Source: Halobacteria archaeon HArc-gm2
GTDB lineage: Archaea > Halobacteriota > Halobacteria > Halobacteriales > Haloarculaceae
Assembly (NCBI GenBank): GCA_025517465.1
Contig: JAOPKE010000001.1
Coordinates: 310,001-374,000, forward strand
Reading direction: 5' to 3'
Length of the DNA stretch: 64,000 nucleotides
Shown here piece by piece: positions 1 through 54,162 of this stretch. The position numbers and the translations under genes are program-made. The notes under the pieces are model-generated. The model was given only the letters and a program-made list of their open reading frames with translations. It searched no databases and had not been told where the DNA came from. Within the stretch, counting starts at the first letter, position 1, and each line of letters begins with the position of its first letter.

Positions 1-597
1 GGACCGACCAAACCGGAGGTTCGGGCCGTCCTCATGAGTAAACTCGCGCTGTCCGACGCCGACCACTTCGTCGAGGTCGGGTCGTGTACCGGCGCCGTCA
101 CCATCGAAGCGGCCCGCCGGGCGGGCCGGGTCACCGCGCTCGAGCGCAAGCCCGACCGCCTCGACGTCACCCGTAAGAACCTCGACGCGAACGACACCGA
201 CGCGCCGGTCGACCTCAGGGCGGCCGAAGCCCCGGAGGGAATACCGGACGACGCGACGGCGCTGTTCCTGGGCGGCAGCCGGAACTACGAGGCCGTCCTC
301 GACCGCGCCGTGGCGGCCGGCATCGACAGAGTCGTGATGAACGTCTCGCGCCTGGAAGTCGCCGGCGCGGCGACGCAGGCCTTCCGCGAGCGCGACGTGC
401 TCGACGAGGTCGTCCAGTTCCAGGTGAGCCACGGATACGAGCTGGCGGGCGCGACGAGCTTCGACTCGGAGAACCCCGTCTACATGCTCGTCGGTAGCGC
501 CGACGTCTCCGACGGCGACGACCGGGTCGCCGCGGACGGGGGCCGCACCCCGGCCACCGACAAACAGACCCGTTCCGGCACGGAGGGGTCCCGATGA
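1..597 (+). CDS. cbiT: Cobalt-precorrin C15-methyltransferase/decarboxylase CbiT (5' partial)
   Basis: CbiT methylates C15 of the corrin precursor and decarboxylates the C12 acetate, using SAM. The frame is open from base 1. The residues before the first ATG at 34 (GPTKPEVRAVL) match the usual CbiT N-terminal motif, so the true start lies outside the window. The SAM loop reads EVGSCTGAVTIEAA, followed by the acidic strand end ALERK. The last 35-40 residues are a polar low-complexity tail. The stop overlaps the cbiL start (ATGA), so the genes are translationally coupled. CbiE, the usual partner, is not visible and may lie upstream. Confidence 0.9.
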   Translation, partial: GPTKPEVRAVLMSKLALSDADHFVEVGSCTGAVTIEAARRAGRVTALERKPDRLDVTRKNLDANDTDAPVDLRAAEAPEGIPDDATALFLGGSRNYEAVLDRAVAAGIDRVVMNVSRLEVAGAATQAFRERDVLDEVVQFQVSHGYELAGATSFDSENPVYMLVGSADVSDGDDRVAADGGRTPATDKQTRSGTEGSR

Positions 598-1403
598 CGC
601 TCTACGGTGTCGGGCTGGGCCCCGGCCAGTCGGATCTGGTGACCGTCCGCGGGAAGCGAGTCCTCGAACGCGCCGACGTGGTGTACTCGCCGGGCCGACT
701 CTCCCGGTCGGTGGCGACGGACCACGTCCCCGAGGACCGCATCGGGGACCTCGACTTCCCGATGACGCGCGACGAGGAGAAACTGCGCAGCGCCTGGACG
801 GAGGCGGCCGCCGCGATCGCGCCGACGGCGCGCGAGGACGACGTCGCGTTCGTGACGCTGGGGGACCCGAACGTCTACTCGACCTTCGGACACCTCCGGC
901 GGACGATGGCGGCGTTCCACGACGACGTCGACCTCGAAGTCGTCCCGGGCGTCAGCGCCGTGACGGCGTTCGCGACGGCGCTCGGCGTCGAGATTCCCGC
1001 GGGGTCAGGCCTCGCCCTCCGGGAGGCTGCCGGCGGCCACTCGCCGACTGGACCGGACCGGATGGTCCTGTTCAAAGTCACGGACGCGCCAACGACCCAC
1101 GAGGGATTGGTCGACGCGGGCTACGACGTGGTGTACGGTCGGCGCCTGTTCATGGAACAGGGCGAGACGCTGGTCACCGACGACCCCGCCGACGTCGACG
1201 AGCGCGATTACTACACGCTGGCCTACGCCGATCGCGACGACCCGACGGCCGACCTGGCTACCGCCGCGTTCGAGACGACCGACTCCCCGACTGTGACGGA
1301 CGGTGGCACGCCGACGGACGGCGGCAGGCCGATGGGCGAGGCCACCCTCGAACAGGCGGAGAGCGAGGCCTGTGGCGACGAACCGCCGGAGGGGAACCGA
1401 TGA
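594..1403 (+). CDS. cbiL: Cobalt-precorrin-2 C20-methyltransferase CbiL
   Basis: CbiL is a SAM-dependent tetrapyrrole methylase that methylates C20 of cobalt-precorrin-2. The N-terminal signature YGVGLGPGQSDLVTVRG (residues 4-20) is the SAM/uroporphyrin methylase P-loop in its CbiL form. A second motif, GDPNVYSTF (about 91-99), and VVPGVSAVTAFA (about 116-127) also fit. The methylase body ends near residue 220. The remaining ~50 residues are a Thr/Gly/Glu-rich tail common in haloarchaeal proteins. It overlaps cbiT and cbiF by 4 bases at each end, which fixes both start and operon membership. Confidence 0.93.
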   Translation: MTLYGVGLGPGQSDLVTVRGKRVLERADVVYSPGRLSRSVATDHVPEDRIGDLDFPMTRDEEKLRSAWTEAAAAIAPTAREDDVAFVTLGDPNVYSTFGHLRRTMAAFHDDVDLEVVPGVSAVTAFATALGVEIPAGSGLALREAAGGHSPTGPDRMVLFKVTDAPTTHEGLVDAGYDVVYGRRLFMEQGETLVTDDPADVDERDYYTLAYADRDDPTADLATAAFETTDSPTVTDGGTPTDGGRPMGEATLEQAESEACGDEPPEGNR

Positions 1404-2272
1404 CGGACCCACAGGACGCGATGGACGCCGAATCCGTCGAACGCGACCCGCGTGTCCACGAGAGAACCGCAGGCGAGGAACAGGAGGGAATCCCCTTCAT
1501 CGGTGCCGGCCCGGGCGACCCCGGGCTGCTGACCGTGAAAGGCCGCGATCTCGTGGAGGCGGCCGACCTCGTGGTCCACGCGGGGTCGCTGGTCAACAGC
1601 GAACTGCTGGAGGAGTTCTGTGCCGACGCCGAGCAGGTGTCGAGCATCGGCAAGGACCTCGAAGAGCTGATCCCGCTGATGCGCGACGCCTACGAGCGAG
1701 GGAGAACCGTCGTCCGCCTCCACAGCGGCGACCCCGCCATCTACGGCGCCGCCCTGGAGCAGATGGACGCGCTGGAGTGCGAGGACGTCCCGACTTACTT
1801 CGTCCCCGGCGTCACGTCGGCGTTCGCCGCCAGCGCGACGCTCCGGACCCAACTCACCCTGAACGAAGTCGCCAACCACGTCGCGTTCACGCGCCCACAG
1901 GGCAAGACCCTCTCCGAGGACGAGGACCACATCTCCGAGTTCGTCGAGATGGGCGACGTGACGACCTGTATCTACCTCGGTACCCACGCCGTCCGCGACA
2001 CGATGGACCGCCTGCTCGACGACGGGCACGACCCCGACAAGCCAGTGGCAGTTGTGTACCACGCCTCCTGGCCCGACGAGGATGTCATCGAGGGCACTGT
2101 GGGGTCCATCGCCGACAAAGTGGAGGCGGCCGGGTACCGGGCGTCGGCGCTGGTGATCATCGGCGAAGCCGTCGAGGGATCGGGCTACGAGCGCTCGTAC
2201 CTCTACGACGGCTGGGCGAATCGAGGGTCTGATGGTGAGGACGCTGCCGAGCAGACGGAGGCCGACGATTGA
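1400..2272 (+). CDS. cbiF: Cobalt-precorrin-4 C11-methyltransferase CbiF
   Basis: CbiF methylates C11 of cobalt-precorrin-4 with SAM. The diagnostic stretch IPFIGAGPGDPGLLTVKG lies at residues 31-48, followed by HAGSLVNSELLEEF, a CbiF/CobM hallmark. HSGDPAIYGA and YFVPGVTSAFAASA supply the rest of the SAM pocket. About 30 charged residues precede the domain. It starts inside the end of cbiL (ATGA overlap). A 198-base gap holding a dispersed repeat separates it from cbiG, the only real break in this otherwise tight operon. Confidence 0.94.
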   Translation: MTDPQDAMDAESVERDPRVHERTAGEEQEGIPFIGAGPGDPGLLTVKGRDLVEAADLVVHAGSLVNSELLEEFCADAEQVSSIGKDLEELIPLMRDAYERGRTVVRLHSGDPAIYGAALEQMDALECEDVPTYFVPGVTSAFAASATLRTQLTLNEVANHVAFTRPQGKTLSEDEDHISEFVEMGDVTTCIYLGTHAVRDTMDRLLDDGHDPDKPVAVVYHASWPDEDVIEGTVGSIADKVEAAGYRASALVIIGEAVEGSGYERSYLYDGWANRGSDGEDAAEQTEADD

Positions 2273-2303
2273 GATGAGCCGGGACCGCAATCCAGAACAG
2301 CCT

Positions 2304-2413
2304 GAAAGCCCCCTCGCGTTCGCCTCGGGGGACTCGCTGCGCGCCTCGCCCTCCGGGCTTCGGTGCTTGCGTCGTCCGCCGTCGCCGAACGCTCGGCCCC
2401 TTTCAGTCCCACC
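2304..2413 (+). repeat. Dispersed ~110-bp repeat (family with GAAAGCC...CCTTTCAGTCC ends), copy 1
   Basis: This fills most of the gap between cbiF and cbiG. It begins GAAAGCCC, ends CCCCTTTCAGTCCCACC, and has GGTGCTTGCGTCGTC in the middle. The same order of blocks recurs at 33790-33894 and, inverted, at 34091-34199. The ends form a short inverted repeat (TGAAAG/CTTTCA). No ORF of its own is credible. I read it as a non-coding mobile-type or structural repeat; the family identity is inference from three copies in this window. Confidence 0.6.
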
Positions 2414-2470
2414 CACACGGCTGGTCGGCCGGCCACCGCGTGCGGCCGTTTTACCGGCCGGTGATTTTCA

Positions 2471-3466
2471 ATGAGTACTGACACCAACGACACAGACACC
2501 ACGGACGCTGACTCGGACGAATCGAGCGGCCACTGTTCCACGCCGGACTCCGACGGGGAGGTGGCCGAGGAGATAGCCATCGTCGCCTTCGAGCGAAAGA
2601 TGGAGACGGCCGAGGAGATAGTCGACGGCGTCGGCGACCGGTACGAGACCATCGACGTCGTCGAGTACCACGGCGACGTCTTCGCCGAGCACTGGGGCGA
2701 GTACGACTGCTTCGTCGGGCTGATGGCCAGCGGTATCGCGATGCGGAAGACCGCGCCATTGCTCGACGACAAGTGGGACGACCCCGCCATCGTCGTCGTC
2801 GACGAGGAGTTGACCTGGGCCATCCCCATCACCGGCGGCCATCACGGCGCGAACCAGGTCGCCGACGACCTGGCGTCGATGGGCGCCGTCCCGGCGATGA
2901 CCACCGCCAGCGAGGCGACGGACAAGCAGGGCGTCGAGAAACAGGCGAAGGCGCTCGACGCCCACGTCGTCAACGGCGACTCGACAGTGGCGACGAATCT
3001 GGCCGTGCTGGACGACGAACTCGGTCCCGTCGAACGCCTCGACGGACCGAAAGCGGTCATGGTCGGCGACGACGTCACCGTCCTCAAGCGCAACGCCGAC
3101 GATGGCGTCGTCCTCGGGTCGGGCAGCGTCTCCGGCGCCACGGTCGAGCAGTTCCACGACGCATGGGAAGCGGCCCTTGCGGAGACCGAGTACGACCGCG
3201 AGGACGTGGAGTTCGTCGCGACGGGCACCCGGAAAGACGACGAGGAGGGCATGCTCGCCGCCGCCGAGGAGTGGGGTCTGGGCGTCGTCGCCTTCGAGAA
3301 GGAGGACCTGGCGGAGTTCGAGGGCCCGACCCCCTCCCGCTCCAAGGAACTCATCGGCTGGCCGGGCATCGCCGAAGCCTCGGCCATCGCCGGCGGGTCG
3401 GAGCACGAACTGATCGGTGAGAAAACGCGCCACGACGACGCCGTGACCGTAGCGGTGGGGCGGTAG
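2471..3466 (+). CDS. cbiG: Cobalt-precorrin-5A hydrolase CbiG
   Basis: CbiG opens the delta-lactone of cobalt-precorrin-5A and releases acetaldehyde, the ring-contraction step of the anaerobic pathway. The N-terminal domain has CFVGLMASGIAMRKTAPLL and the conserved ITGGHHGANQVADDLA motif (about 118-133). The C-terminal domain ends with PTPSRSKELIGWPGIAEASAI, typical of CbiG. A ~35-residue acidic leader precedes the domain. The start at 2471 follows the dispersed repeat. The stop is directly followed by the cbiH start (1-base gap), so translation is probably coupled. Confidence 0.92.
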   Translation: MSTDTNDTDTTDADSDESSGHCSTPDSDGEVAEEIAIVAFERKMETAEEIVDGVGDRYETIDVVEYHGDVFAEHWGEYDCFVGLMASGIAMRKTAPLLDDKWDDPAIVVVDEELTWAIPITGGHHGANQVADDLASMGAVPAMTTASEATDKQGVEKQAKALDAHVVNGDSTVATNLAVLDDELGPVERLDGPKAVMVGDDVTVLKRNADDGVVLGSGSVSGATVEQFHDAWEAALAETEYDREDVEFVATGTRKDDEEGMLAAAEEWGLGVVAFEKEDLAEFEGPTPSRSKELIGWPGIAEASAIAGGSEHELIGEKTRHDDAVTVAVGR

Positions 3467-3467
3467 C

Positions 3468-4409
3468 ATGACGGTGGAAGGTTCCAGCGCGCCCGACGAA
3501 TCGACGGCGGAACCCGGCACCCTCTACGTCGTCGGCATCGGTCCGGGGCTCCCCCACGCGATGACCCAGCGGGCGAAGGACGTGATCCAGTCCGCCGACG
3601 TCGTCGTCGCCTCGAACCTCTACCAGGAGTTCCTCCGGAAGGACGGGACGCTTCCGCCCGAGAGCGCTGCGGTGGAGGCCGCAACTGACGGTGGCAGCGG
3701 TGCCATTGCTGCTCGGAACGACCTGACGGCCGCGGGCGAGGAGGGGTCCGTCCTCGAACGACCCGACGACTCCCGCCAGTTGCTGATCCGCTCGTCGATG
3801 GGGCGCCAGGTCGAACTGGCCCGCGACGCCTTCGAACGGGTCCGAGAGGGCCAGGACGTCGCCCACGTCTCCGGCGGCGACCCGAACGTCTACGGCAAGA
3901 GCGATCTGGTGTTCACGATGGCCGACGCCGACGACGCGACGGACGTCCCCATCGAGATCGTCCCCGGCGTGACGGCGGCGCTGGGCGGCGCGGCGAACCT
4001 CGGTGCGCCGCTGTCCAACGACTTCTGCACGATATCCCTCTCGGACAAGTGGCGCGGCTGGGACGAGATCGAGGAGAAGCTGCGAGCGGCCGCTATCTCG
4101 GGGTTCGTCGTCGCGCTGTACAACTGCTGGCGCAACTACGAGCGAGCGGTCGACGTGATTCGCGAGGAGCGCCACGACGACGTCCCCGTCGCCATCGTCA
4201 ACGACGCCGGTCGCGGCGACGCAGGACGGAACCTCGACGACGAGACGCACACCATCACGACCCTCGGCAAGGCAGGCGACCACGACGACGAGGTCGGCGG
4301 CATGGGCACCTCGCTGGTCGTCGGCAACGCCGAGACGGAGACCTGGGAGAACGACTACGAGCGGTACCTCGTCACCCCGCGCGGCGGGCGTGACGTGGAG
4401 GACTTCTGA
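3468..4409 (+). CDS. cbiH: Precorrin-3B/cobalt-factor III C17-methyltransferase CbiH, copy 1
   Basis: This is a SAM-dependent methylase acting at C17 with ring contraction. The methylase P-loop is TLYVVGIGPGLPHAMTQRA (about 20-38). VSGGDPNVYGKSDLVF and EIVPGVTAALGGAANLGAPLSNDFCTISLSD are characteristic of CbiH. An insertion of ~45 residues (about 60-105, Gly/Ala/Glu-rich) after the first strand pair is absent from copy 2. It lies directly downstream of cbiG and 3 bases upstream of a second cbiH. The two paralogues may have separate roles; the sequence does not say which is the ring-contracting enzyme. Confidence 0.9.
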   Translation: MTVEGSSAPDESTAEPGTLYVVGIGPGLPHAMTQRAKDVIQSADVVVASNLYQEFLRKDGTLPPESAAVEAATDGGSGAIAARNDLTAAGEEGSVLERPDDSRQLLIRSSMGRQVELARDAFERVREGQDVAHVSGGDPNVYGKSDLVFTMADADDATDVPIEIVPGVTAALGGAANLGAPLSNDFCTISLSDKWRGWDEIEEKLRAAAISGFVVALYNCWRNYERAVDVIREERHDDVPVAIVNDAGRGDAGRNLDDETHTITTLGKAGDHDDEVGGMGTSLVVGNAETETWENDYERYLVTPRGGRDVEDF

Positions 4410-4412
4410 ACC

Positions 4413-5411
4413 ATGAGCACCGACAGCGACACCGAGACGGACGCGAGCACAGACACCGGATCGAACTGCGGCGCATCGAGCAGCGAAACGAACGCCGACG
4501 ACTCCGCGTCGAAGTGCGGCGGGGCGACGATAGGCGACGACGGCGGTTCGTCGTCGGGCTGCGGGGCCTCCTCGTCCTCGTCCTCGAATTCCAGCGGCGA
4601 GCAGGAGGTCGAGTCCACCGTCGACGACTTCGACGCCGAGCCGGGCCGGCTCCTCGCCGTGGGCCTCGGACCCGGGCAGCCAGAGGGCATGACCCAGCGC
4701 GCGCGAACGGCGCTGATGGAGGCCGAACACGTCGTCGGCTACACGACGTACATCGACCTGATCCCCGACGAGATAACCGAGGCGGCCGACGAGCTGTACG
4801 ACACGCCGATGTGCGGCGAGGTCTCCCGGACCGAGGAGGCCATCGACCGCGCGCTCGCGGGCAACGACGTCGCCATCGTCGGCAGCGGCGATCCAAACGT
4901 CTACGCGTTGGCCGGGCTCGCCCTGGAGATAATCGAGTCGAAGGGCGGGACGGCGTCGATGGTCGACTTCGAGGTCGTCCCCGGCGTCCCGGCCGCCCAG
5001 TCCTGCGGTGCCCGCCTCGGCGCGCCGCTGGTCAACGACACCGTCTCCGTCTCCCTCTCTGACCACCTGACGCCGATGGCGGAGATCGAGTCCCGTCTGG
5101 AGGCCGTCGCCGGCGAGGGATTCACCATCGCGATCTACAACCCGTGGAGCCGCAAGCGCCGCGGGAACTACCAGACGTGCTGTGACATCCTGCTGGAGCA
5201 CCGCGACCCGGACACGCCCGTCGGTATCGTCCACGGCGCCGGCCGGGAGGACGAGCGGGTCGAGATCGTCAAGCTGGGAGAGCTTCCCGACCTCGGAGAG
5301 ACCGATCTGGTCGACATGACCACCACCATCCTCGTCGGCAACGAGGACACCTACGTCTGGGACGACCGGATGGTGACGCCGCGCGGCTACGAGACGAAGT
5401 ACGACTACTGA
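4413..5411 (+). CDS. cbiH: Precorrin-3B/cobalt-factor III C17-methyltransferase CbiH, copy 2, with Cys/Ser-rich N-terminal extension
   Basis: The methylase domain starts near residue 78 (GRLLAVGLGPGQPEGMTQRA) and continues with GSGDPNVYALAG and VVPGVPAAQSCGARLGAPLVNDTVSVSLSDHLTP, all standard CbiH motifs. The first ~75 residues are unusual: Ser/Asp/Thr low complexity with three spaced CG(A/G) motifs, Cys19, Cys35 and Cys50. Such a tail could hold metal or an Fe-S cluster or simply be disordered. The gene lies 3 bases after copy 1 and 3 bases before the ferredoxin gene, so the ferredoxin may serve this enzyme. Function of the tail is inference. Confidence 0.9.
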   Translation: MSTDSDTETDASTDTGSNCGASSSETNADDSASKCGGATIGDDGGSSSGCGASSSSSSNSSGEQEVESTVDDFDAEPGRLLAVGLGPGQPEGMTQRARTALMEAEHVVGYTTYIDLIPDEITEAADELYDTPMCGEVSRTEEAIDRALAGNDVAIVGSGDPNVYALAGLALEIIESKGGTASMVDFEVVPGVPAAQSCGARLGAPLVNDTVSVSLSDHLTPMAEIESRLEAVAGEGFTIAIYNPWSRKRRGNYQTCCDILLEHRDPDTPVGIVHGAGREDERVEIVKLGELPDLGETDLVDMTTTILVGNEDTYVWDDRMVTPRGYETKYDY

Positions 5412-5414
5412 GCC

Positions 5415-5672
5415 ATGAGCGACACAGATACCTACGACGTGCGGATCGACCGCGAGGCCTGCGACGGCGTCTTCGCTTGCCTCGTCCGCGACTCGCGGTT
5501 CGTCGAGGACGAGGACGGCCTCGCCAGCGTCGACCCGGAAACGGCCGTCTCGGTGGAATGTGACGGCGAGTTCGTCACCGCGCGGTTCGACGACGGGAAC
5601 CTCGACCAGGCGAAGCAGGCGGCCGCGGCGTGTCCGCTGGACGCGATATCGGTCACGGAGGGAGTGCGATGA
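5415..5672 (+). CDS. Small single-cluster ferredoxin in the cobalamin operon
   Basis: An 85-residue acidic protein with Cys16-x5-Cys22 near the N-terminus and Cys73-Pro (AAACPLDAI) near the C-terminus, the pattern of a monocluster bacterial-type ferredoxin. The usual middle ligand between the first two Cys is Val19, so a [3Fe-4S]-like cluster is more likely than [4Fe-4S]; Cys49 is an extra candidate. Placed between cbiH and cbiX, it probably supplies electrons to a corrin-ring or chelation step. The stop overlaps the start of the next gene. Confidence 0.8.
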   Translation: MSDTDTYDVRIDREACDGVFACLVRDSRFVEDEDGLASVDPETAVSVECDGEFVTARFDDGNLDQAKQAAAACPLDAISVTEGVR

Positions 5673-6382
5673 GCATCCAGTCCGGCACCCCGAAGGACCT
5701 GCTCGCCGCCCACCCGGAGACGGCGTACTTCTGGGGCCGCGTCGCCGCGGACGGCGAGTGCGAAGACGGCTGCGTGACCGTCCGAACGAACGACGAGACC
5801 GCAGCCCACCGGCTGGCCGCCATCGCCGGCGCAGACCAGATAGACCGCCGGATCCTCGAACGGGAGTACGCCCACGACACGGCCATCACCCGCAAAGAAG
5901 ACGAGTACGTCGTCCAGGTGCTCGGCGACCTGGCTGACCGGGCCGGCGCCGCGCTCGGCCTTCCCTTGGAGGGACAGCCGGGGGGCTACCGGTTCGACGT
6001 CTTCGCCGACCACGACCGACAGCTCCTCCGGGGGCTGCTGGAGGGCTGTGGCACGGTCTGCTTCAAGTCGGACGACGAGGCCGTCGGCATCTCGGCGAGC
6101 GAAGCGAGCCGAGGCTCGACAGAGCAGGGCTCTGTCGTCGTCTCGTTCGTTCACGATGACGAGCGACTCCTCCGGGCCGTCCAGTCGGTCCTCGACCGCA
6201 TCCCGGTCGACGCGCCCCACGACGACCTCGCCGACGCCTCGTCGGGCTACTGGTTCGGCGTCGACGACGACAGCGTCCCGGCCCTCGGCGAGTGGGTGTA
6301 CGAAGGCACGGACGAGTCCGGGCTGTTCGCCCCGCCTCGCCGGCGAAAGCTCCGGAAGAGCCTGGACCGGATAGAGCGATGA
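5669..6382 (+). CDS. Unassigned cobalamin-operon protein with degenerate LAGLIDADG-like repeats
   Basis: A 237-residue protein, not a known corrin enzyme. The start at 5669 overlaps the ferredoxin stop (ATGA) and is preferred to upstream in-frame codons. Residues 19-29 (AYFWGRVAADG) and 119-128 (LLRGLLEGCG) resemble the two LAGLIDADG helices of homing-endonuclease-fold proteins. Each is followed by strand-like segments and an HRLAAI/LLRAVQSVL helix. The first repeat keeps the acidic residue (Asp28), the second has Cys127 instead, so cleavage activity is doubtful. Its tight place between ferredoxin and cbiX suggests a role in B12 synthesis, perhaps binding nucleic acid or ligand; that is inference. 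It overlaps cbiX by 4 bases. Confidence 0.7.
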   Translation: MSIQSGTPKDLLAAHPETAYFWGRVAADGECEDGCVTVRTNDETAAHRLAAIAGADQIDRRILEREYAHDTAITRKEDEYVVQVLGDLADRAGAALGLPLEGQPGGYRFDVFADHDRQLLRGLLEGCGTVCFKSDDEAVGISASEASRGSTEQGSVVVSFVHDDERLLRAVQSVLDRIPVDAPHDDLADASSGYWFGVDDDSVPALGEWVYEGTDESGLFAPPRRRKLRKSLDRIER

Positions 6383-7602
6383 GCGAAGCGACCGCTGCCC
6401 CCGAGACGCTCGACGACGAGGCGGTACTGCTCGTCGGCCACGGCTCCCGCCGCGAGCAGTCCAACGAACAGGTCAGGGAACTCGCTGCCGCGCTCGAATC
6501 GCGGCTCCGACTTCCGGTCGACGCCGCCTATCTGGAACTGGCCTCGCCGGCAATCGACGAGGCAATCGCCGGCCTCGCACCGACGGCCTCGCGATTGACG
6601 GTCGTCCACCTCTCGCTGTTCGCCGCGAGTCACGTCAAGAACGACGTGCCGCTGGCCGTGACGCAGGCCCGGAGCCGCCATCCGGACCTCACCATCCGGA
6701 ACGGGGCCCACCTGGGTATCCATCCGGCCATCGTCGACCTGCTGGACGACCGTGCCGCCGCAGTGGAGGCGGAAATGGACGTCGACCGCGAAACCGACGA
6801 CGTCGCCGTGGTTTTCTGCGGGCGGGGGTCGAGCGACCCCGACGCCAACGCCGACGTTCACAAACTCGCCCGGTTGCTGTACGAGGGCCGAGCGTTCTCG
6901 CGCGTCGACCCGAGCTTCATCGGCGTGACGGAACCGGACCTCCCGACGACGCTGCACGACGTCGCGAAACACCGGCCCGACGCCGTCGTCGTCCTCCCCT
7001 ATATGCTCGGCGACGGCGTGCTGACCGAGCGCATCCGCGAGCGCACCCGCGAGTTCGACGACGAGTACCCCTACGTCGCGGCCGCACCTGGCGACCCGCT
7101 GGGCACCGACGACCGGTTGCTCGACGTGCTGGGCGACCGCTGGCAGGAGGCCCGGACCGAGAGCGTCGACATGTCGTGTGACACGTGCAAGTACAAGGTC
7201 GAACTCGACGGGTACGAGGAGGACACCGGCGGCGCGCGGGCGATGTTGCGCGCCTTGACTCACCAGGCGAGCCACGCGGACCGCGAGGACGTCGACGACG
7301 ACCCGCACGTCCACGACGCCCCGGAGAAGCACGTCGCCGTCTGCACGAACCAGACCTGTGCGGCCGACGGCGCGCCTGCCGTCCTCGAACGGCTCCGGCA
7401 GGCCGCCCGCGACTCGGAGGCCTGCGACGCCAGAATCACGCGCTCGTCTTGTCTGGGCCGGTGCGGAGACGGCCCGATGGTCGCCGTCTACCCGGACGGC
7501 GTCTGGTACGGCGGCCTCGACTCGGAGGACGCCGACCGCATCGTTTCGTCCCACCTCGACCGGGACCGCATCGTCGGCGACCTCGTCGATCAGACGCTGT
7601 AA
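6379..7602 (+). CDS. cbiX: CbiX-type cobalt chelatase with C-terminal [2Fe-2S] thioredoxin-like domain
   Basis: Inserts Co2+ into sirohydrochlorin (class II chelatase). Two chelatase half-domains are visible: residues 15-130 with VGHGSRREQSN (His21) and SLFAASHVKNDVP (His85), and 140-260 with VFCGRGSSDPDAN and VLPYMLGDGVL. A CDTCKYK segment (267-273) and a His/Asp-rich linker follow. A C-terminal domain (about 318-400) has CTNQTC and CLGRC, the [2Fe-2S] thioredoxin-like ferredoxin pattern. The start at 6379 overlaps the preceding stop. The domain order suggests redox control or electron transfer to the chelatase, which is inference. Confidence 0.9.
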   Translation: MSEATAAPETLDDEAVLLVGHGSRREQSNEQVRELAAALESRLRLPVDAAYLELASPAIDEAIAGLAPTASRLTVVHLSLFAASHVKNDVPLAVTQARSRHPDLTIRNGAHLGIHPAIVDLLDDRAAAVEAEMDVDRETDDVAVVFCGRGSSDPDANADVHKLARLLYEGRAFSRVDPSFIGVTEPDLPTTLHDVAKHRPDAVVVLPYMLGDGVLTERIRERTREFDDEYPYVAAAPGDPLGTDDRLLDVLGDRWQEARTESVDMSCDTCKYKVELDGYEEDTGGARAMLRALTHQASHADREDVDDDPHVHDAPEKHVAVCTNQTCAADGAPAVLERLRQAARDSEACDARITRSSCLGRCGDGPMVAVYPDGVWYGGLDSEDADRIVSSHLDRDRIVGDLVDQTL

Positions 7603-7623
7603 TAAGCCGCATACACACCAACC

Positions 7624-7995
7624 ATGACCTGTCACGAACTCGAAGCGCTTCGACTCGGTTTGATGAACGTTGTCGGTACCGAAGACCAGCGCGTCCGCGA
7701 ACACGCGGAGGCCGAACTGGACGGCGAACTGTCCGGACCTATCGAGGCCCTGGCGAACGCCCAGTCGCTCGCGGAGATAGAACGCCACTTCGACGCCGCA
7801 CTGGTGGACCTGGAGGAACAGGTCGCCGCCACGGACGCGGACAGCCAGGAGTACGACTACCTCCGCGGCCGTCTCGTGGCCGTCAGGGACGCCGAGCGCG
7901 CGGTTCGCCGGCTCCGAACCCAGGGCGAGGACGTCCTGGCGGGCCTCGGCGAAGCTCACCACGTCCTCCACGAGACGTTCCCGGTCGAGGACTGA
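7624..7995 (+). CDS. DUF3209-like protein, last gene of the cobalamin operon
   Basis: A 123-residue, helix-rich acidic protein starting MTCHELEALRLGLMNVVG, which I believe matches the haloarchaeal DUF3209 family; no catalytic motif is evident. The Cys3/His4 pair at the N-terminus is the only obvious metal-binding candidate. It follows cbiX by 21 bases on the same strand and probably ends the operon. Conserved linkage with cbiX would point to a cobalt-handling or chelatase-accessory role, but function is unknown. Confidence 0.75.
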   Translation: MTCHELEALRLGLMNVVGTEDQRVREHAEAELDGELSGPIEALANAQSLAEIERHFDAALVDLEEQVAATDADSQEYDYLRGRLVAVRDAERAVRRLRTQGEDVLAGLGEAHHVLHETFPVED

Positions 7996-8145
7996 ACTCA
8001 CGCCCGAGCGAGGCCCGCATTTCCCGGGACTGTGGGCGCGACGGTGATAACCGACTGCCGGCTAGTCGATGACAGCACCTCGTCGGCGTTCTGCTGGACG
8101 GGTGTGAGAAATTTTTCGTGGGGCACCGCGAACCGGCAAAGTCGT

Positions 8146-8859
8146 TCAATCGTTCAGGACAGCGAAATCGGCCGCTTCGGCGGACTGCACAGTAGAATCG
8201 GCGAGCCACGCGTGGACCCCTGCGAGCGTCGCCCACAGAACGACCTGCCCGAAGACGACCGTCCACCGGAAAGCAACGACGAGGCCGGCGGGGACGCCTC
8301 CGTGGACGGCGTTGGCGGGAGTGAGGACGACCGGGAGGGCGAGCAGGCAGAGTGGGGCCAGCGACGCCGCGGTCCGGACGGCAGGACGGCGGGCCGCGAG
8401 TCTGCGGTAGACGACGCCCGCGAGCACCGACACGCCGGCGCCGGCGACCATCATTCCGCCGTACCAGGCCGTCCGGGCCCCGCTCGCGAGCGACTGCTCG
8501 ACGCCCGGTGGCTGTGGCGGCAGCACGAGCCACGGCGCCCCCGAGACGGTGAGGAACCCGGCGCCAGCGAGGACCAGACGCCTCGTCACCGGGTCGCCGG
8601 GAAGGACGGGTTCCAGGAAGTAGTAGGCGATTCCGAACGCGACGATGCCGAACAGCAGCCCCCAGAGGACGCCGCCCCCGATACTGACGAGGCTGGTCGT
8701 CAGCGACGAGACGGCCGGTTCCCCGGCGTGGCCGTGCCCGGACTCGAACGTCTCCAGTCCGGCGACGAACGGGTTGGCGACCAGCGCGACGAACAGGCCG
8801 TAGGCCAGCCCCCCCACCACGCCCGCGAGCGCGCCGCGTTCGAGGTAGCCGGTCGTCAT
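8146..8859 (-). CDS. cbtA: Cobalt transporter subunit CbtA
   Basis: A membrane protein of 237 residues with about six hydrophobic segments (about 10-32, 60-85, 95-115, 130-150, 168-188, 195-220). The first loop is His-rich (ESGHGHAGEP), consistent with divalent-metal binding. The arrangement matches the CbtA family of predicted cobalt importers usually paired with CbtB. It starts 22 bases after the cbtB stop on the same strand, so the two form a pair. It lies among B12 genes, supporting Co2+ uptake for corrin synthesis. Confidence 0.85.
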   Translation of the reverse strand: MTTGYLERGALAGVVGGLAYGLFVALVANPFVAGLETFESGHGHAGEPAVSSLTTSLVSIGGGVLWGLLFGIVAFGIAYYFLEPVLPGDPVTRRLVLAGAGFLTVSGAPWLVLPPQPPGVEQSLASGARTAWYGGMMVAGAGVSVLAGVVYRRLAARRPAVRTAASLAPLCLLALPVVLTPANAVHGGVPAGLVVAFRWTVVFGQVVLWATLAGVHAWLADSTVQSAEAADFAVLND

Positions 8860-8881
8860 CGGTGGAACCCCTCTGGCGCCA

Positions 8882-9070
8882 TCAGTGACACGTCACGCCG
8901 GCGCCGTGCCGAATGTTGTGGAGTCCGTCGTGGACCAGCGGGTCCTGGACGAACAGGAGCGTGAACCCGAGCGCAGCGATCAGTCCGAGGCCGACGGCCA
9001 TCTGCGCCGGCGTCAGCGTCGTCCTCGCGCGGTCGATCCGTCGGCGAACGGTGTCGGTGTCTCCGGGCAT
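8882..9070 (-). CDS. cbtB: Cobalt transporter subunit CbtB
   Basis: A 62-residue single-span membrane protein. The hydrophobic segment is at about residues 21-43. The C-terminal tail VHDGLHNIRHGAGVTCH carries four His and one Cys and is the hallmark metal-binding end of CbtB proteins. It lies upstream of cbtA in the same transcription unit. An inverted repeat at 9081-9096 sits between the probable TATA box and the start, suggesting metal- or B12-dependent control. Confidence 0.88.
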   Translation of the reverse strand: MPGDTDTVRRRIDRARTTLTPAQMAVGLGLIAALGFTLLFVQDPLVHDGLHNIRHGAGVTCH

Positions 9071-9080
9071 TTAAATCACA

Positions 9081-9096
9081 TTTGTATTAGAACAAA
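9081..9096. promoter_or_regulatory. Operator-like inverted repeat upstream of cbtB
   Basis: TTTGT-ATTAGA-ACAAA, perfect 5-base arms. On the - strand a BRE/TATA-like CGAAAG-TTTTACAA lies at about 9104-9114, so the repeat would sit between the TATA box and the cbtB start. A 12-of-16 match (CTTGTATTAGTGAAAA) occurs at 11366-11381 in the chlID/cobN gap. Shared placement near two cobalt-related promoters suggests a common regulator; no regulator gene is seen in the window. Confidence 0.5.
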
Positions 9097-9159
9097 CTTG
9101 ATTGTAAAACTTTCGCGTCCGCCTCGATCGCTCCTCGACCAGCGGGAACGGCGCACAGG

Positions 9160-11364
9160 TCAGTCGTCACTGCGGGCCGTGGAAGCGACGCTGTCGATAC
9201 CACTCGCACGGAGTTCCGAGAGCGGGACCACCGATCCGTCCGTCGCATCCAGGATCACGTCGACCAGACCGGCGCGCCCGTCCTCGCCCGCGTCGACGAC
9301 GAGTACCTCGTCGCTGACCTGGCGAAGTTCCTCGGCCGCGCTGCGGGTGGTCGCCGTCGGATGTTTCCCCACGTTCGCGCGGCCGTCGGTGACGACCACC
9401 GCGACGCCGACGTCCGGGTCCGCGCGGTCGAGAACCGCCGTGGTCGTTCGCAACCCCGCCGGCAGCGGCGTCCGGTCGGCGGTCGGGAGGTCCTTCAGGT
9501 GCCGGGCAGCGTGAGTCACGCTGTCTGTCGGCGGGAGCAGTACCTCGGCGTCGTCGCCGGCAAAGGCGACGAACGCCACCTCGTCGCGGTGCTGGTAGGT
9601 GTCTTCGAGCAGTTCGAGGACGACGCCTTTGGCGGTCCGCATCGCGGACCGCATCGACGCGCTCGCATCGACCGCGAACACCATCAGCGCCGAGGCGTCG
9701 CTCGCCCGAACGGACGACCGAAGGTCGCGCCGAGTGACGGCATCGCTCCCGCGCCTGGCAGCGGCCCGGACCGACGCCGCGGCGTCGACGTCGTCGCCGT
9801 CCTCGGCCGACGTCGTCCGGATGCGCGCGCCGCTCGCACCCGTGCCGGCCACGCCGCTCGCACGCGACCCGTGCTCCGTCACCGCGTCGGCGTCGACGTC
9901 GACGGAGAGATCGGGACTCGACGCCTCGCCGACGCCGGCCCGGTTCTGCCCGGGAACGAGCGGTGTTCCCGCCACCGGATCGTCGCCCGGCGAGGCGCCG
10001 TCGCCGTCGGCGCTGTCGTCCCGCTCGCCATCACTGGTGGTCGATGGTGAACCCGTATCGTCCGGCCCGCTGTCGGGCACTCCGGGCGGCGCCGGAGCGT
10101 CCCGTCCGGCCCCGTCGTCGCCGTCTCCGTCTGAGTCCTCACCCCGGGACGTTCCGTCGCGTTTCTCACCGGAGTCCTGTTCCTCGGGTCCCGCCTCGCC
10201 AGCTCCCGACTCCGAGTCACTGCTGCGGGTGTCGTCTTCGGAGTCGGTCCCACGCTCGCCACCGGGTTCGTTTCGGGCCTCGGAATCCGAGTCGTCACGG
10301 CCGTCTCCCCCGTCGCCGCGCTCCGATTCGCCATCGGCACTCTCGTCGTCTTCGAAGTGATCGTCGAGGACGTCGTCGAGGTCGACGTCCTCCTCGAACG
10401 GACGTGACTGGAGCCGATGGGGAAGCGCGAACTCCGCGGCGCGTTCGACGTCGGACTCTAGCACGTGGGGGCGTCCGTCGAGCGCCGCGAGCGTCCGCGC
10501 TGTCCGGGCGATGGCGATGTCTCCCCGGTGGCCGTCGACGCTCGCGTCCCGGCATATCCGGGCGGCCTTCTCCGCGAACTCTCGGGGGAGCGCCACTCTC
10601 TCGTCGGCCAGCCGTTCCCGCGCGTCCAGCAGCCGGCGTCGCGGGGCGTCCGATTCGGCACCGTCGTCCTTCGCCGTCCCGTCGATGGCCTGCTCGATGA
10701 TGGCGACGCGGTCGTCCAGGTCGTCACACGAAGTGACGGTCGCCTGGATGGCGAACCGGTCCCGTAGCTGGGGACGCAGGTCGCCCTCCTCGGGGTTCAT
10801 CGTTCCCACGAGGGTGAACTCGGCGGGGTGGGTGACGCTCATCCCGTCGCGTTCGACGCGGTTGACACCGCTTGCGGCCGCGTCCAGTAGCACGTCGACG
10901 AGGTGGTCGTCGAGGAGGTTCACCTCGTCGACGTAGAGGATACCGCGATTGGCCCGGGCGAGCAGTCCCGGGTCGAACTCGGCTGCGCCGTCCATCGCGT
11001 CCGCGACGGAGAGCGTCCCGACTACTCGCTCCCGCGTCGCGCCGAGGGGAAGCGTCACGAGCGGCACCTGGCGCTCCTCGACGGACAGGTCGGACCGCCC
11101 GCGACAGTCCTCGCACTGGTCGTCTGGGTCGTTCGGCGGACAGCCGTACGGGCAGTCGGCGACGGCGGGCTGGTCGGGAAGCAGACCGGCGAGGCCGCGG
11201 ACGGCGGTGGACTTCGCGGTGCCCTTCTCGCCCTCGACGAGGAGCCCGTCCAGCGCGTCGTTGGCCGCCACCGCGAGCAGAGCCTCCTTGAATTCCTCCT
11301 GCCCGACGATGTCGCCGAACGAGGGCGCCCCCGAACCTTTTTGCCCCGCGCGTAATTCAACCAT
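9160..11364 (-). CDS. chlID: Fused chelatase ATPase/VWA subunit (ChlI-ChlD type) for cobaltochelatase
   Basis: A 734-residue AAA+ chelatase motor fused to a von Willebrand A domain, expected to work with CobN to insert cobalt into hydrogenobyrinate a,c-diamide. Walker A is GEKGTAKST (45-53), Walker B ILYVDEVNLL (142-151), and GTMNPEEGDLRPQLRDRFA is the sensor/arginine-finger region. An insert with four Cys (71-87, CPYGC...CEDC) suggests a zinc knob. A long Asp/Glu/Gly/Ser-rich linker (about 330-540) leads to the VWA domain with MIDAS motif DASASM at about 566. It is divergent from cobN with only 35 bases between starts. Confidence 0.92.
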   Translation of the reverse strand: MVELRAGQKGSGAPSFGDIVGQEEFKEALLAVAANDALDGLLVEGEKGTAKSTAVRGLAGLLPDQPAVADCPYGCPPNDPDDQCEDCRGRSDLSVEERQVPLVTLPLGATRERVVGTLSVADAMDGAAEFDPGLLARANRGILYVDEVNLLDDHLVDVLLDAAASGVNRVERDGMSVTHPAEFTLVGTMNPEEGDLRPQLRDRFAIQATVTSCDDLDDRVAIIEQAIDGTAKDDGAESDAPRRRLLDARERLADERVALPREFAEKAARICRDASVDGHRGDIAIARTARTLAALDGRPHVLESDVERAAEFALPHRLQSRPFEEDVDLDDVLDDHFEDDESADGESERGDGGDGRDDSDSEARNEPGGERGTDSEDDTRSSDSESGAGEAGPEEQDSGEKRDGTSRGEDSDGDGDDGAGRDAPAPPGVPDSGPDDTGSPSTTSDGERDDSADGDGASPGDDPVAGTPLVPGQNRAGVGEASSPDLSVDVDADAVTEHGSRASGVAGTGASGARIRTTSAEDGDDVDAAASVRAAARRGSDAVTRRDLRSSVRASDASALMVFAVDASASMRSAMRTAKGVVLELLEDTYQHRDEVAFVAFAGDDAEVLLPPTDSVTHAARHLKDLPTADRTPLPAGLRTTTAVLDRADPDVGVAVVVTDGRANVGKHPTATTRSAAEELRQVSDEVLVVDAGEDGRAGLVDVILDATDGSVVPLSELRASGIDSVASTARSDD

Positions 11365-11399
11365 ACTTGTATTAGTGAAAACAGGGGTTTAACAAGCTT
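11365..11399. promoter_or_regulatory. Compact divergent leaderless promoters of chlID and cobN
   Basis: Only 35 bases separate the two start codons. For cobN (+) a TATA-like TTGTATTAG (11368-11376) lies about 28 bases before ATG 11400. For chlID (-) the GTTAAAC on the other strand (about 11387-11393) lies about 27 bases before ATG 11364. Each core promoter thus sits next to the other gene's start, and both transcripts would be leaderless. The cobN box coincides with the motif shared with cbtB, so one bound protein could affect both genes. Confidence 0.6.
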
Positions 11400-14300
11400 A
11401 TGTCATCCATCGGACTATACACCGCGACGGAGAACGAACTGGGCGCCGTCCAGCGCGCCGCGGGCGAGGTCGAGGCCGACCTGGTCGTCCGCTCGGAGAG
11501 CGACCTCGACGACGAACCCGCCGTCGAGTCGTTCGTCGACGAACTCGAGGACGCGACGGCAGCTATCTTCTGGCTCCACGGGGCCGAGGATAGCATGCCG
11601 GGGTACGAACGCGCCGTCGAACGCCTCCGCGAGGCCGGCGTCCCGCTCGTCGTGAAGGCCACCGGCGACGCCTTCGCCGTCGAGGACACGTCGGTCCCGG
11701 GCGAGGAACGCGAGACGGTCTGCGAGTATCTCGACCGCGGCGGGACGAGCAACGTCGCGAACTGCGTGCGCTACCTCGTCGCCCGCTACGGCGACGCCAA
11801 CCCCGACTTCGACGACCCCGTGACGCTCCCGACCGAGGGCGTCTACCACCCCGACTATCCGGGCGTCGGCTACGAGGAACTGCTGGCCGCGTTCGATACC
11901 GACGCCCCCACCGTCGCCGTCTGGTTCTACGAATCGCACTGGACCCACGAGAACACTCGGTACGTCGACTCGCAGGTTCGGGCCATCGAGGCCCAGGGCG
12001 CCAACGCGCTCCCGATTTTCTGCGAACCCGCGACCGACGCCGAGGGCCAGTGGAACGCCGAGCAAGTGACCAGAGAGTGGCTCATCGACGACCAAGGCAA
12101 TCCCGTCGTCGACGCCGTCTGTTCCTCGTTCATGTTCTCGCTCTCGATGGACGAGCGGGGCCGGAGCGCCAGCGACGAAGGGGACGCCGCAGAGGACGTC
12201 TTCCTCGACGAACTGGGCGTCCCAGTCATCCAGACCGTCACCACGATGCGTTCCCGTTCGCGCTACGAAGGAAGCGACACGGGCGTCATGGGCTTCGAAC
12301 TCGCCCTCTCCGTCGCACTCCCGGAGTTCGACGGCAACGTGATCACGCATCCCATCTCGGGGAAGGAACGGACCGACGACGCGGCCGGCATCGGGAGCGC
12401 CCCGAAACAGCACTTCCCCATCGAGGACCGCGTCGACCACGCGGCCCGCCTCGCGGTCAACTGGGCGCGTCTGCGCCACCTGGAGAACGACGAGAAGCAG
12501 GTGGCCGTGGTCCTCCACAACTACCCGCCGAGCGACGACGGCATCGGTACTGCGTTCGGCCTCGACTCGCCAGCGAGCACCGTCAATCTCCTCGACGAAC
12601 TCGCCGCTCGGGGGTACGACCTCGGAGCGGGCGCCGGAGATCACGCACCGATTCCCGACGACGGCCAGTCCCTCGTCGAGACGCTGACGTCGCAACTCAC
12701 GCTGGACGACCGCTGGGTCGCCCCGGAGGACGTCAGGGACCTGTCGGTGGATACCGTCTCACCCGACGAGTACCAGTCCTGGTTCGCCGACCACGACGAA
12801 CGGTTCCAGGACAACGTCGTCGAGGAGTGGGGCAAAGCCCCCGACCGCCCGTTCGCCATCCCCGGCGTCGAGCTTGGCAACGTCCTGGTGACGGTCCAGC
12901 CGCCCCGCGGCTTCGGCATGGATCCGTCGAAGGTGTACCACGACTCCGACCTGCAGCCGCCTCACGACTACGTCGCGTTCTACGCCTGGCTCCGCAACCA
13001 GTTCGAGACCGACGCCGTCGTCCACCTGGGAACCCACGGCAGCCTGGAGTGGCTCCCCGGCAAGACCGTCGGTCTGGACGGCGAGAGCGCACCGGACCAG
13101 TTGATCGACGATATCCCGAACGTCTACCCCTACATCGTCAACAACCCCGGCGAGGGCACGCAGGCCAAGCGCCGCTCCTCCGCCGCCGTCGTCGACTACC
13201 TCACGCCCGTGATGCGCAACGCGGGCACGTACGACGACCTGGCCGACCTGGAAGAACTCGCCGACCGCTACCGGGAGGCCGGCATGGAGGACGCCCGCGC
13301 CGACGACGGCGAGCACCTCGAACAGTTGATCCGCGAGACCATCGACGACCTGGACCTGGCGGTGGAACTGGGAATCGCGGGCGACATCGACGAGCAGGCA
13401 GACGTCCGCGGCCCGGACGAAGCGGGCTCCACGCTGGCGGAAGGCGACGTCACCGGCGATGACGTCTCTATCGACGATCTGGTCGAGCGCGTCCACGAGT
13501 ACCTCACCGACGTCAAGACCACCCAGATCCGGCTGGGGTTGCACACGATGAGCGAACCCCCGGCCGACGAGCGACTCGTGGAGTACCTCGTCGCGCTCAC
13601 GCGCCTGGAGAACCCCGGCGCGCCGAGCCTCCGGGAAAGCGTCGCCGGCGTCCTCGGCGTCGACTACCAGGCGATGCTCGACGAGCCGGGAACCTACGAC
13701 GAGGACCTGGGGATGACCTACGCCCAGGCCGCCGACGAAGTGTTCGAGACCAGCCTCGATCTGGTCTCGACGCTGGCCGAGCACGACTTCGACGTGCCCG
13801 AGTCGAACGTCGCCGCTGACCCAGCGGACGAGGTGAACATGAATCTCCTCGTCGTCGACGTCGATCCGATCGGCGACGCGCGTGCCCGGTCCGGCGCACA
13901 CGACGACCTGCGAGAGGTCCTGGCCTACATCTGCGAGGAAGCCGCACCGAGAGTCCGGGGTTCCGAGGACGAAGTGCCACGGACGGCCGACGCCCTGAAC
14001 GGCGAGTACGTCCCGCCGGGCGGCAGCGGCGCGCCGACCCGCGGCGGCGTCGACCTGCTGCCGACGGCCCGGAACTTCTACACCCTGGACCCGCGGAAGG
14101 TCCCGGCAAAGTCCGCCTGGGAGGTCGGTAGCGAAGTGGCCGATGGGGTGGCAGAGCGGCACCACGACGAAAACGACGGCGAGTATCCCGAGGAGATCGG
14201 CGTCGTCGCGTGGGGGACACCCACCGTCCGCACGCGCGGGGAGACCATCGCCCAGGTGCTCGCGCTGATGGGCGTCGAACCGGTGTGGACCGACGCCGGC

Positions 14301-15323
14301 CGGGTCGACGACGTCGAACCGATTTCCCTGGACGAACTCGACAGGCCCAGAATCGACGTGACGACGCGCGTCTCCGGGCTGTTCCGCGACGCGTTCCCCG
14401 CCGCGGCGAGCGTCGTCCACGACGCCGTCGACGCCGTCGTCGACCTCGACGAACCCCACGAACTGAACTACGTCAAGAAGCACGTCGAGGCAGAGACGGA
14501 GCGGCTCCTCGCCGAGAGCGACGACCCCGACTTCGTCGAGAGCGACGCCCGGGCCGCCGCGAAGCACCGCGTCTTCACGACCCGACCCGGCGGCTACGGC
14601 GCGGGCACGAACAAGGCGGTCGACGAGGGCAACTGGGACGACCGCTCGGATCTGGCGTCGGTGTACGTCCAGTGGGGCGGCTACGCGATGGGCTCCAGAG
14701 GGAACGTCAGCGAGGCCCACGACGCCTTCGAGCGCCGTCTCTCGTCGGTCGACGCCACCGTCAAGATAGAGGACACGGCCGAACAGGACGAGTTCGATTC
14801 CTCGGACTGGTACGCCTTCCACGGCGGGTTCATCACCGCCGTCACGGAGATGGCGGGGGAGGAACCGGCCTCCTACGTGGGCGACTCCAGCGATCCCGAC
14901 AACGTCGACGTCTACACCAACGAGGAGAAGGTCAGGAAGGCGATGCGCGCCCGCGTACTCAACCCCGACTGGCTCGACTCCATGGAAGAGCATGGCTACA
15001 AGGGGGCCGGCGACCTCTCGACGACCGTCGACGTCGTCCTCGGCTGGGACGCGACGACGGGCGTCGTCAGCGACCGACTCTGGGAGGACGTGGCGGAGCG
15101 TTACGCGCTCGACGACGAGCGGCAGGAGTGGCTCCGCGACGTCAATCCCTGGGCGCTGGACTCCATCACCGAGACGCTGCTGGAGGCCATCGACCGCGGC
15201 CTCTGGGACGCCGACGACGAGATTCGCGACGAGTTACGTGACGTCAATTTGCAGGTGGACGGTGACCTGGAGGCGCGCGCGTCTGGGGCCGGCCCCGAGG
15301 GGGTGGCCAGCGATGACGACTAA
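11400..15323 (+). CDS. cobN: Cobaltochelatase large subunit CobN
   Basis: CobN, at 1307 residues, is the large catalytic subunit of the ATP-dependent late cobalt chelatase and related to magnesium-chelatase ChlH/BchH. Typical blocks are VLHNYPPSDDGIGTAFGLDSP (about 367-387), VTVQPPRGFGMDPSKVYHD (about 500), HLGTHGSLEWLPGKTVGLDG (about 542-561) and the C-terminal FTTRPGGYGAGTNKAV and WQEWLRD-like end. Length and motif order are normal and no frameshift is seen. It pairs with the divergent chlID. The last 11 bases overlap the cbiC start. Confidence 0.95.
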   Translation: MSSIGLYTATENELGAVQRAAGEVEADLVVRSESDLDDEPAVESFVDELEDATAAIFWLHGAEDSMPGYERAVERLREAGVPLVVKATGDAFAVEDTSVPGEERETVCEYLDRGGTSNVANCVRYLVARYGDANPDFDDPVTLPTEGVYHPDYPGVGYEELLAAFDTDAPTVAVWFYESHWTHENTRYVDSQVRAIEAQGANALPIFCEPATDAEGQWNAEQVTREWLIDDQGNPVVDAVCSSFMFSLSMDERGRSASDEGDAAEDVFLDELGVPVIQTVTTMRSRSRYEGSDTGVMGFELALSVALPEFDGNVITHPISGKERTDDAAGIGSAPKQHFPIEDRVDHAARLAVNWARLRHLENDEKQVAVVLHNYPPSDDGIGTAFGLDSPASTVNLLDELAARGYDLGAGAGDHAPIPDDGQSLVETLTSQLTLDDRWVAPEDVRDLSVDTVSPDEYQSWFADHDERFQDNVVEEWGKAPDRPFAIPGVELGNVLVTVQPPRGFGMDPSKVYHDSDLQPPHDYVAFYAWLRNQFETDAVVHLGTHGSLEWLPGKTVGLDGESAPDQLIDDIPNVYPYIVNNPGEGTQAKRRSSAAVVDYLTPVMRNAGTYDDLADLEELADRYREAGMEDARADDGEHLEQLIRETIDDLDLAVELGIAGDIDEQADVRGPDEAGSTLAEGDVTGDDVSIDDLVERVHEYLTDVKTTQIRLGLHTMSEPPADERLVEYLVALTRLENPGAPSLRESVAGVLGVDYQAMLDEPGTYDEDLGMTYAQAADEVFETSLDLVSTLAEHDFDVPESNVAADPADEVNMNLLVVDVDPIGDARARSGAHDDLREVLAYICEEAAPRVRGSEDEVPRTADALNGEYVPPGGSGAPTRGGVDLLPTARNFYTLDPRKVPAKSAWEVGSEVADGVAERHHDENDGEYPEEIGVVAWGTPTVRTRGETIAQVLALMGVEPVWTDAGRVDDVEPISLDELDRPRIDVTTRVSGLFRDAFPAAASVVHDAVDAVVDLDEPHELNYVKKHVEAETERLLAESDDPDFVESDARAAAKHRVFTTRPGGYGAGTNKAVDEGNWDDRSDLASVYVQWGGYAMGSRGNVSEAHDAFERRLSSVDATVKIEDTAEQDEFDSSDWYAFHGGFITAVTEMAGEEPASYVGDSSDPDNVDVYTNEEKVRKAMRARVLNPDWLDSMEEHGYKGAGDLSTTVDVVLGWDATTGVVSDRLWEDVAERYALDDERQEWLRDVNPWALDSITETLLEAIDRGLWDADDEIRDELRDVNLQVDGDLEARASGAGPEGVASDDD

Positions 15324-53997: not shown

Positions 53998-54162
53998 ACT
54001 TCGGGGGGTGTCCTCGCGACGCTCCGCGCCGCTGCGGGCACCCCCGCTCGCAAAAATCTACGCTAAAAACTTCCTTCTCGCTCACTGCGTTCGCGAGAAG
54101 TGAAACGGCTCGCTTCGCTCGCCGTATGTTGTTCTCACAAGGCCGCAACTGCTGCTCCGCCG

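Follow-up and report, generated by a model that had tools for sequence, protein, structure and literature searches.

The question raised by this locus is why a protein with LAGLIDADG-type motifs should be encoded within a cobalamin (B12) operon, between a ferredoxin-like gene (fdx) and the gene for the cobaltochelatase CbiX, and what it does there. The DNA analysed (the window) is a 64,000-nucleotide stretch from Halobacteria archaeon HArc-gm2 (assembly GCA_025517465.1, contig JAOPKE010000001.1, forward-strand positions 310,001 to 374,000); the product of the open reading frame concerned is here termed LAG (Table 1). A sequence-only reading of the same stretch had described two LAGLIDADG-like repeats and start/stop overlaps with both neighbours, and had proposed a domesticated, probably non-cleaving protein with a B12 role such as regulation or substrate binding. 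Both motifs are found at the residues that it gave, and the overlaps are real, fdx and cbiX each sharing 4 bp (ATGA) with LAG.

Table 1. Features of the LAG locus; positions are those of the window unless stated otherwise.
Feature	Position	Strand	Remarks
Candidate operator before cbiT	G000:C1:309923-309939		Just upstream of the window
cbi operon, part in window	34..5411	+	cbiT (start precedes the window), cbiL, cbiF, cbiG (2471-3466), cbiH2 (cbiH-type, 3468-4409), cbiH1 (cbiH-type, 4413-5411)
fdx	5415..5672	+	Ferredoxin-like, Fer4_15; ATGA overlap with LAG
LAG	5669..6382	+	Two-repeat non-catalytic LAGLIDADG protein, 237 aa; from ORF, predicted fold and alignment
First LAGLIDADG helix motif	5723..5755	+	AYFWGRVAADG, residues 19-29; D28, at the catalytic position, varies in the family
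Second LAGLIDADG helix motif	6023..6052	+	LLRGLLEGCG, residues 119-128; Cys127 codon 6047-6049
Cys131 codon	6059..6061	+	Invariant like Cys127 (99/99); lies on the strand that follows motif 2
In-frame insertion in LAG	6089..6139	+	51 bp, residues 141-157, predicted disordered
cbiX	6379..7602	+	Cobaltochelatase; MxCxxC and C-terminal thioredoxin-like [2Fe-2S] domain; ATGA overlap with LAG
DUF3209 gene (PF11483)	7624..7995	+	Part of the same conserved module
Weaker copy of the element, before cbtB	9088-9105	-	
Weaker copy of the element, between chlID and cobN	11357-11374	+	

The window protein taken alone gave nothing usable in Pfam, NCBIfam and PDB sequence searches, the PDB matches being at chance level, and in the Pfam scan it does not itself match LAGLIDADG_3 (PF14528); evidence for the fold required that the family be assembled first, and 25 relatives were aligned. 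Fourteen of these 25 homologues match LAGLIDADG_3, weakly, with one above the curated cut-off (24.8 versus 22.5 bits). The AlphaFold2 model of the window protein (pLDDT 79.8, pTM 0.80) has the succession alpha-beta-beta-alpha-beta-beta-alpha twice, followed by a C-terminal helix. When this model was compared with the PDB using Foldseek, the best 50 matches were all LAGLIDADG proteins, headed by I-Tsp061I (2dch, E 9.9e-9) and including inteins, the bI3 maturase, I-DmoI and WhiA (E 4e-5). A divergent homologue of 198 residues, about 31-39% identical to the others, was modelled with a pLDDT of 85.5 and again retrieved LAGLIDADG matches only. Structure prediction and fold comparison thus agree for two divergent members, and the LAGLIDADG assignment stands. 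The comparison with WhiA, also part of the earlier proposal, is borne out in that WhiA is among the fold neighbours; it is, however, one of many and not the closest.

Outside the family, the nearest relative seen in sequence is an intein from a haloarchaeon (G044), inserted in its gene for RNA polymerase A''; the second motif of this intein aligns residue by residue with that of LAG (LLRGYLSGDGSV in the intein, LLRGLLEGCGTV in LAG). The GDG of the intein lies opposite the GCG of LAG, so that Cys127 occupies the place of the intein's catalytic Asp. The intein is located at L119:1986-4595; a further frame of 1871 residues in the same genome (contig G044:C97, L132:8354-13969) opens with an intein-like YLAEG motif.

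Among 99 distinct LAG sequences Cys127, Cys131, Glu125, Gly122, Arg121 and His69 are invariant. By contrast, position 28, that of the first catalytic acid, is variable, being Asp in 62, Ser in 18, Gly in 8, Asn in 8 and Ala in 3, i.e. non-acidic in 37 of the 99. The earlier description, one acid kept and the other replaced by Cys127, is accurate for the window copy, but for the family only the replacement is general. With an invariant Cys127 and a variable position 28, the LAG family, taken together, cannot consist of standard endonucleases with two catalytic acids. In the LAGLIDADG fold the helix end and the first strand face a shared metal site and, by analogy, Cys127 and Cys131 probably point into one cavity.

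The fold and the intein-type sequence similarity might suggest an active or decaying homing endonuclease that sits in the operon by chance, a reading that we regard as having a negligible likelihood. Active enzymes of this type have an acid ending each LAGLIDADG motif; in the LAG family these acids are lost and one position is Cys in 99 of 99 sequences. They reside in introns, inteins or mobile genes of sporadic spread; LAG is a conserved operon gene in strict synteny, with no intron or intein context and with no viral or phage relatives found. Four of five close pairs have dN/dS ratios of about 0.09-0.16, and the remaining, very close pair has 0.43, values that indicate purifying selection. 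Catalytic residues, synteny and selection thus all led us to reject an active homing endonuclease. The Foldseek E value of the top match, the exclusively LAGLIDADG character of the best 50 PDB matches, the LAGLIDADG_3 matches and the dN/dS values together place LAG beyond chance resemblance; it is neither an artefact nor, in function, a homing endonuclease.

The insertion at residues 141-157 of the window copy is missing from all 98 other distinct homologues, including the nearest relative (92% identical), and coincides with the low-confidence part of the AlphaFold2 model. This lineage-specific insertion contains GCGAGCGAAGCGAGC, a second copy of which lies in the window at 54108-54122 (0.03 expected), and has the look of a palindromic repeat that entered the gene in frame.

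The distribution of LAG follows that of corrin synthesis. Comparison of the two genome lists for 392 genomes of the order gave cbiG in 200 and LAG in 193, with both present in 192, cbiG alone in 8 and LAG alone in 1, the last being an 88%-complete metagenome-assembled genome in which LAG lies at a contig edge. Among 295 genomes from across the phylum LAG matches were confined to members of the same order, all 80 named contigs with LAG are haloarchaeal, and all eight plasmids with cbiG also carry it, the RefSeq name of the plasmid copies being 'cobalamin biosynthesis protein'. LAG thus occurs in haloarchaea only and goes with the de novo synthesis of B12. The cobalamin link originally drawn from a single locus therefore extends to the family: its homologues lie in cbi operons in 80 of the 80 named contigs, rather than mostly outside cobalamin loci.

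The immediate neighbourhood is equally constant, with fdx directly upstream and cbiX downstream of LAG in all 80 contigs, and with the 4-bp overlap recurring at 57 of 79 fdx/LAG and 56 of 78 LAG/cbiX junctions. The gene for DUF3209, a family mentioned in no paper found by our literature search, is beside cbiX in 77 of the 80 LAG operons, and most also have cbiT-L-F-G and two cbiH-type genes (the labels cbiH1 and cbiH2 used in Table 1 would be swapped by the locus order in PMC8305020). With its catalytic acids lost family-wide, under purifying selection and with a fixed place, LAG is best seen as a LAGLIDADG protein that has been domesticated and probably cleaves no DNA, as the sequence-only reading supposed; it would be a monomer of two repeats, with a settled place in the early-cobalt B12 operon of haloarchaea.

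What LAG contributes to that operon is less certain. The cob/cbi genes of H. salinarum are activated by TrmB and are proposed to have a second activator besides (PMC3794607), and it could be imagined that LAG, with its LAGLIDADG ancestry, its basic C-terminal helix and the precedent of WhiA (PMC3781837), is a domesticated DNA-binding regulator of the operon, of WhiA-like origin, and possibly this second activator. The regulatory role is, however, disfavoured, and we consider it unlikely. Pfam scans detected no helix-turn-helix (HTH) or other domain in LAG, the 237 residues of which are taken up by the two repeats and one helix; nor is there a basic DNA-binding saddle, the net charge being zero or below for most of the saddle strands, such that only the C-terminal helix is basic. 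Furthermore, a nearly invariant element, TTT-N4-TA-N3-CAANCANAATTGTTTTA, with the core inverted repeat ACAA-N6-TTGT, occurs upstream of cbiT in 60 of 62 operons and is a candidate operator of haloarchaeal B12 genes. The element is kept in two genomes that lack LAG (G043 and G045) and in G044, where LAG is elsewhere, and is thus independent of LAG. A separate HTH gene, present in 57 of 59 genomes with or without cbiG, is divergently oriented beside the cbi operon in many of them, the window included. This gene was considered as a dedicated B12 regulator in its own right and dropped, since it occurs regardless of cbiG. An Rfam search of window positions 1-16000 found no riboswitch.

A second possibility is that LAG supplies one of the steps apparently missing from the haloarchaeal pathway, i.e. 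the C1-methylation of CbiD or the reduction of CbiJ. Profiles for CbiD (PF01888) and CbiJ (PF02571) are absent from all 59 genomes tested, and in PMC8305020 the four genes of the cobalamin cluster with no assigned function are proposed, in general terms, as candidates for such gaps. LAG itself matches neither profile. In G043 and G045 the cbi operon, chlID and cobN are kept, yet LAG, fdx, DUF3209, CbiD and CbiJ are all absent, hence LAG is not a general replacement for CbiD or CbiJ. LAG also diverges faster than the pathway enzymes (median identity to the window copy 57%, compared with 73-79%), and we know of no SAM or NAD(P)H site in the LAGLIDADG fold. A gap-filling enzyme therefore appears improbable, more so than a regulator.

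The exceptional operons are informative. In G043 and G045 a His-rich tail replaces the C-terminal [2Fe-2S] domain of CbiX. In a further genome, G335, the cbi operon is ordinary, LAG is missing, and an additional CbiX, ending in a His-rich tail (L134:7703-8644), is encoded between fdx and cbiX, thus occupying the exact LAG slot. His-tailed CbiX was present in all three LAG-less operons examined, as against 1 of 79 LAG-bearing operons, a correlation that is suggestive and not proof, the LAG-less cases representing about two independent lineages. The one LAG-bearing case, L054, has LAG together with His-tailed CbiX and is without the CbiX tail domain and DUF3209; in G032, LAG is present and fdx missing. 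A strict module of fdx, LAG, the CbiX [2Fe-2S] tail and DUF3209, prompted by G043 and G045, was rejected because L054 and G032 break it. From these exceptions it follows that each part of the module is separable and that LAG follows corrin synthesis itself. In G044 LAG has moved out of the operon and is flanked by two cation-efflux (CDF) genes, with which it forms, together with a rhodanese gene, a closely packed run on one strand (L121:4445-7454), an arrangement seen in this one genome; despite the relocation, fdx is still with cbiH and cbiX with DUF3209. The replacements of LAG and its single relocation both point to metal handling.

A different type of irregularity is seen in G151, which has a divergent operon (L120:3113-8652) with no recognisable fdx and with a LAG that carries a repetitive internal insertion. 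The cbiG of this operon is poorly conserved (only 41% identical), and a second, better cbiG is present elsewhere in the genome, so the divergent operon is possibly a decaying copy.

It may be that LAG handles no metal itself and instead takes part in substrate handover, either with a tetrapyrrole intermediate as its ligand or as a scaffold for fdx, the CbiH-type enzymes and CbiX. Such a role would fit its translational coupling to both neighbours, its conserved loops (AHD-x4-R and SSGGYWF) and its having no other assigned activity. However, LAG persists when unlinked from cbiX and fdx, in G044, and where fdx is missing, in G032, and the two invariant cysteines are not explained by this role alone. 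We judge it a minority possibility, ahead of regulation.

The reading that we place first, tentatively and at somewhat short of an even chance, is that LAG is an accessory at the cobalt-insertion step, working with CbiX; a metal-free tetrapyrrole-binding or scaffolding role comes next, followed by regulation and then by a gap-filling enzyme. In the cobalt-accessory proposal the place between the LAGLIDADG helices where Mg2+ was once bound would have been rebuilt around Cys127 and Cys131, which may bind a thiophilic or borderline metal, e.g. Co(II); a Cys-rich site of this kind would prefer Co(II)/Zn(II)-type metals to Mg(II), and LAG would help the right metal to reach sirohydrochlorin on CbiX. 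Alternatively, the cysteines may be a pair of thiols sensitive to redox state, with the ferredoxin as their partner. The cobalt reading is favoured by the fdx-LAG-cbiX order in 80 of 80 contigs, the 4-bp overlaps, the slot replacement in G335, the His-tail counts, the CDF surroundings in G044 and the invariant CxxxC. It is weakened in that the His-tail correlation reduces to about two independent lineages, that LAG and a His tail occur together in L054, and that the CDF surroundings occur in a single genome. It is also weakened by the account of the early cobalt-insertion route given in PMC10206600, according to which that route, in other organisms, needs no Co(II) metallochaperone. The most specific version, in which a homing-endonuclease scaffold was recruited to metabolism, its Mg2+ site becoming a cobalt-binding or redox Cys pair that aids CbiX and is interchangeable with the His-rich tail of CbiX, is more doubtful than the accessory role as such.

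In comparison with the LAGLIDADG homing and intein DOD endonucleases, including I-Tsp061I, I-DmoI, PI-SceI and the LAGLIDADG_3 family, LAG shares the two-repeat fold and both interface-helix motifs. It differs from them in the loss of the catalytic acids, in the invariant Cys127 and Cys131, in lacking mobility and a basic saddle, and in being the product of a biosynthetic-operon gene. WhiA (DUF199) is similar in that it, too, is a protein of the host whose LAGLIDADG domain has degenerated and lost catalytic residues (PMC3781837); such a domain is N-terminal in WhiA and is likewise found in LAG. By contrast with WhiA, LAG has no C-terminal HTH, occurs in haloarchaea rather than Gram-positive bacteria, and is bound to one pathway. 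The LAG lineage is thus comparable to WhiA in origin and different in biological role. The likeness to CobW, a Co(II) metallochaperone acting in late insertion, lies in the proposed role only, i.e. the supply of Co(II) to corrin synthesis; CobW is a G3E GTPase, whereas LAG has a different fold and no GTPase motif.

To our knowledge, the domesticated LAGLIDADG proteins described so far, WhiA, HO and the maturases, act on nucleic acids. If the cobalt reading is true, a selfish-gene fold has been reused for metal or cofactor chemistry, an unexpected job for LAGLIDADG. The reading yields a testable cobalt prediction, and Haloferax volcanii is a genetically tractable host. There, HVO_B0055 has the same slot as LAG, between HVO_B0056 and cbiX1 (HVO_B0054), and from this position we infer that the two are orthologues. 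In the main text of PMC8305020 HVO_B0055 is listed as 'function unassigned' within the haloarchaeal cobalamin cluster, with no mention there of LAGLIDADG, of a Cys site or of a role with cobalt. Our literature search found no paper tying LAGLIDADG to haloarchaeal cobalamin genes, or reporting the LAG fold or Cys site; the gene was thus already known by its position, and what is new here, as far as that search showed, is its LAGLIDADG fold and invariant Cys site. The present results bear on what the four cluster genes with no assigned function do, in that one of them now seems less likely to fill the CbiD/CbiJ gap than to act at cobalt insertion.

Among the plasmid-borne copies, one Haloarcula rara plasmid (CP119786; L036 and L037) carries the cbiH-fdx-LAG-cbiX region twice.
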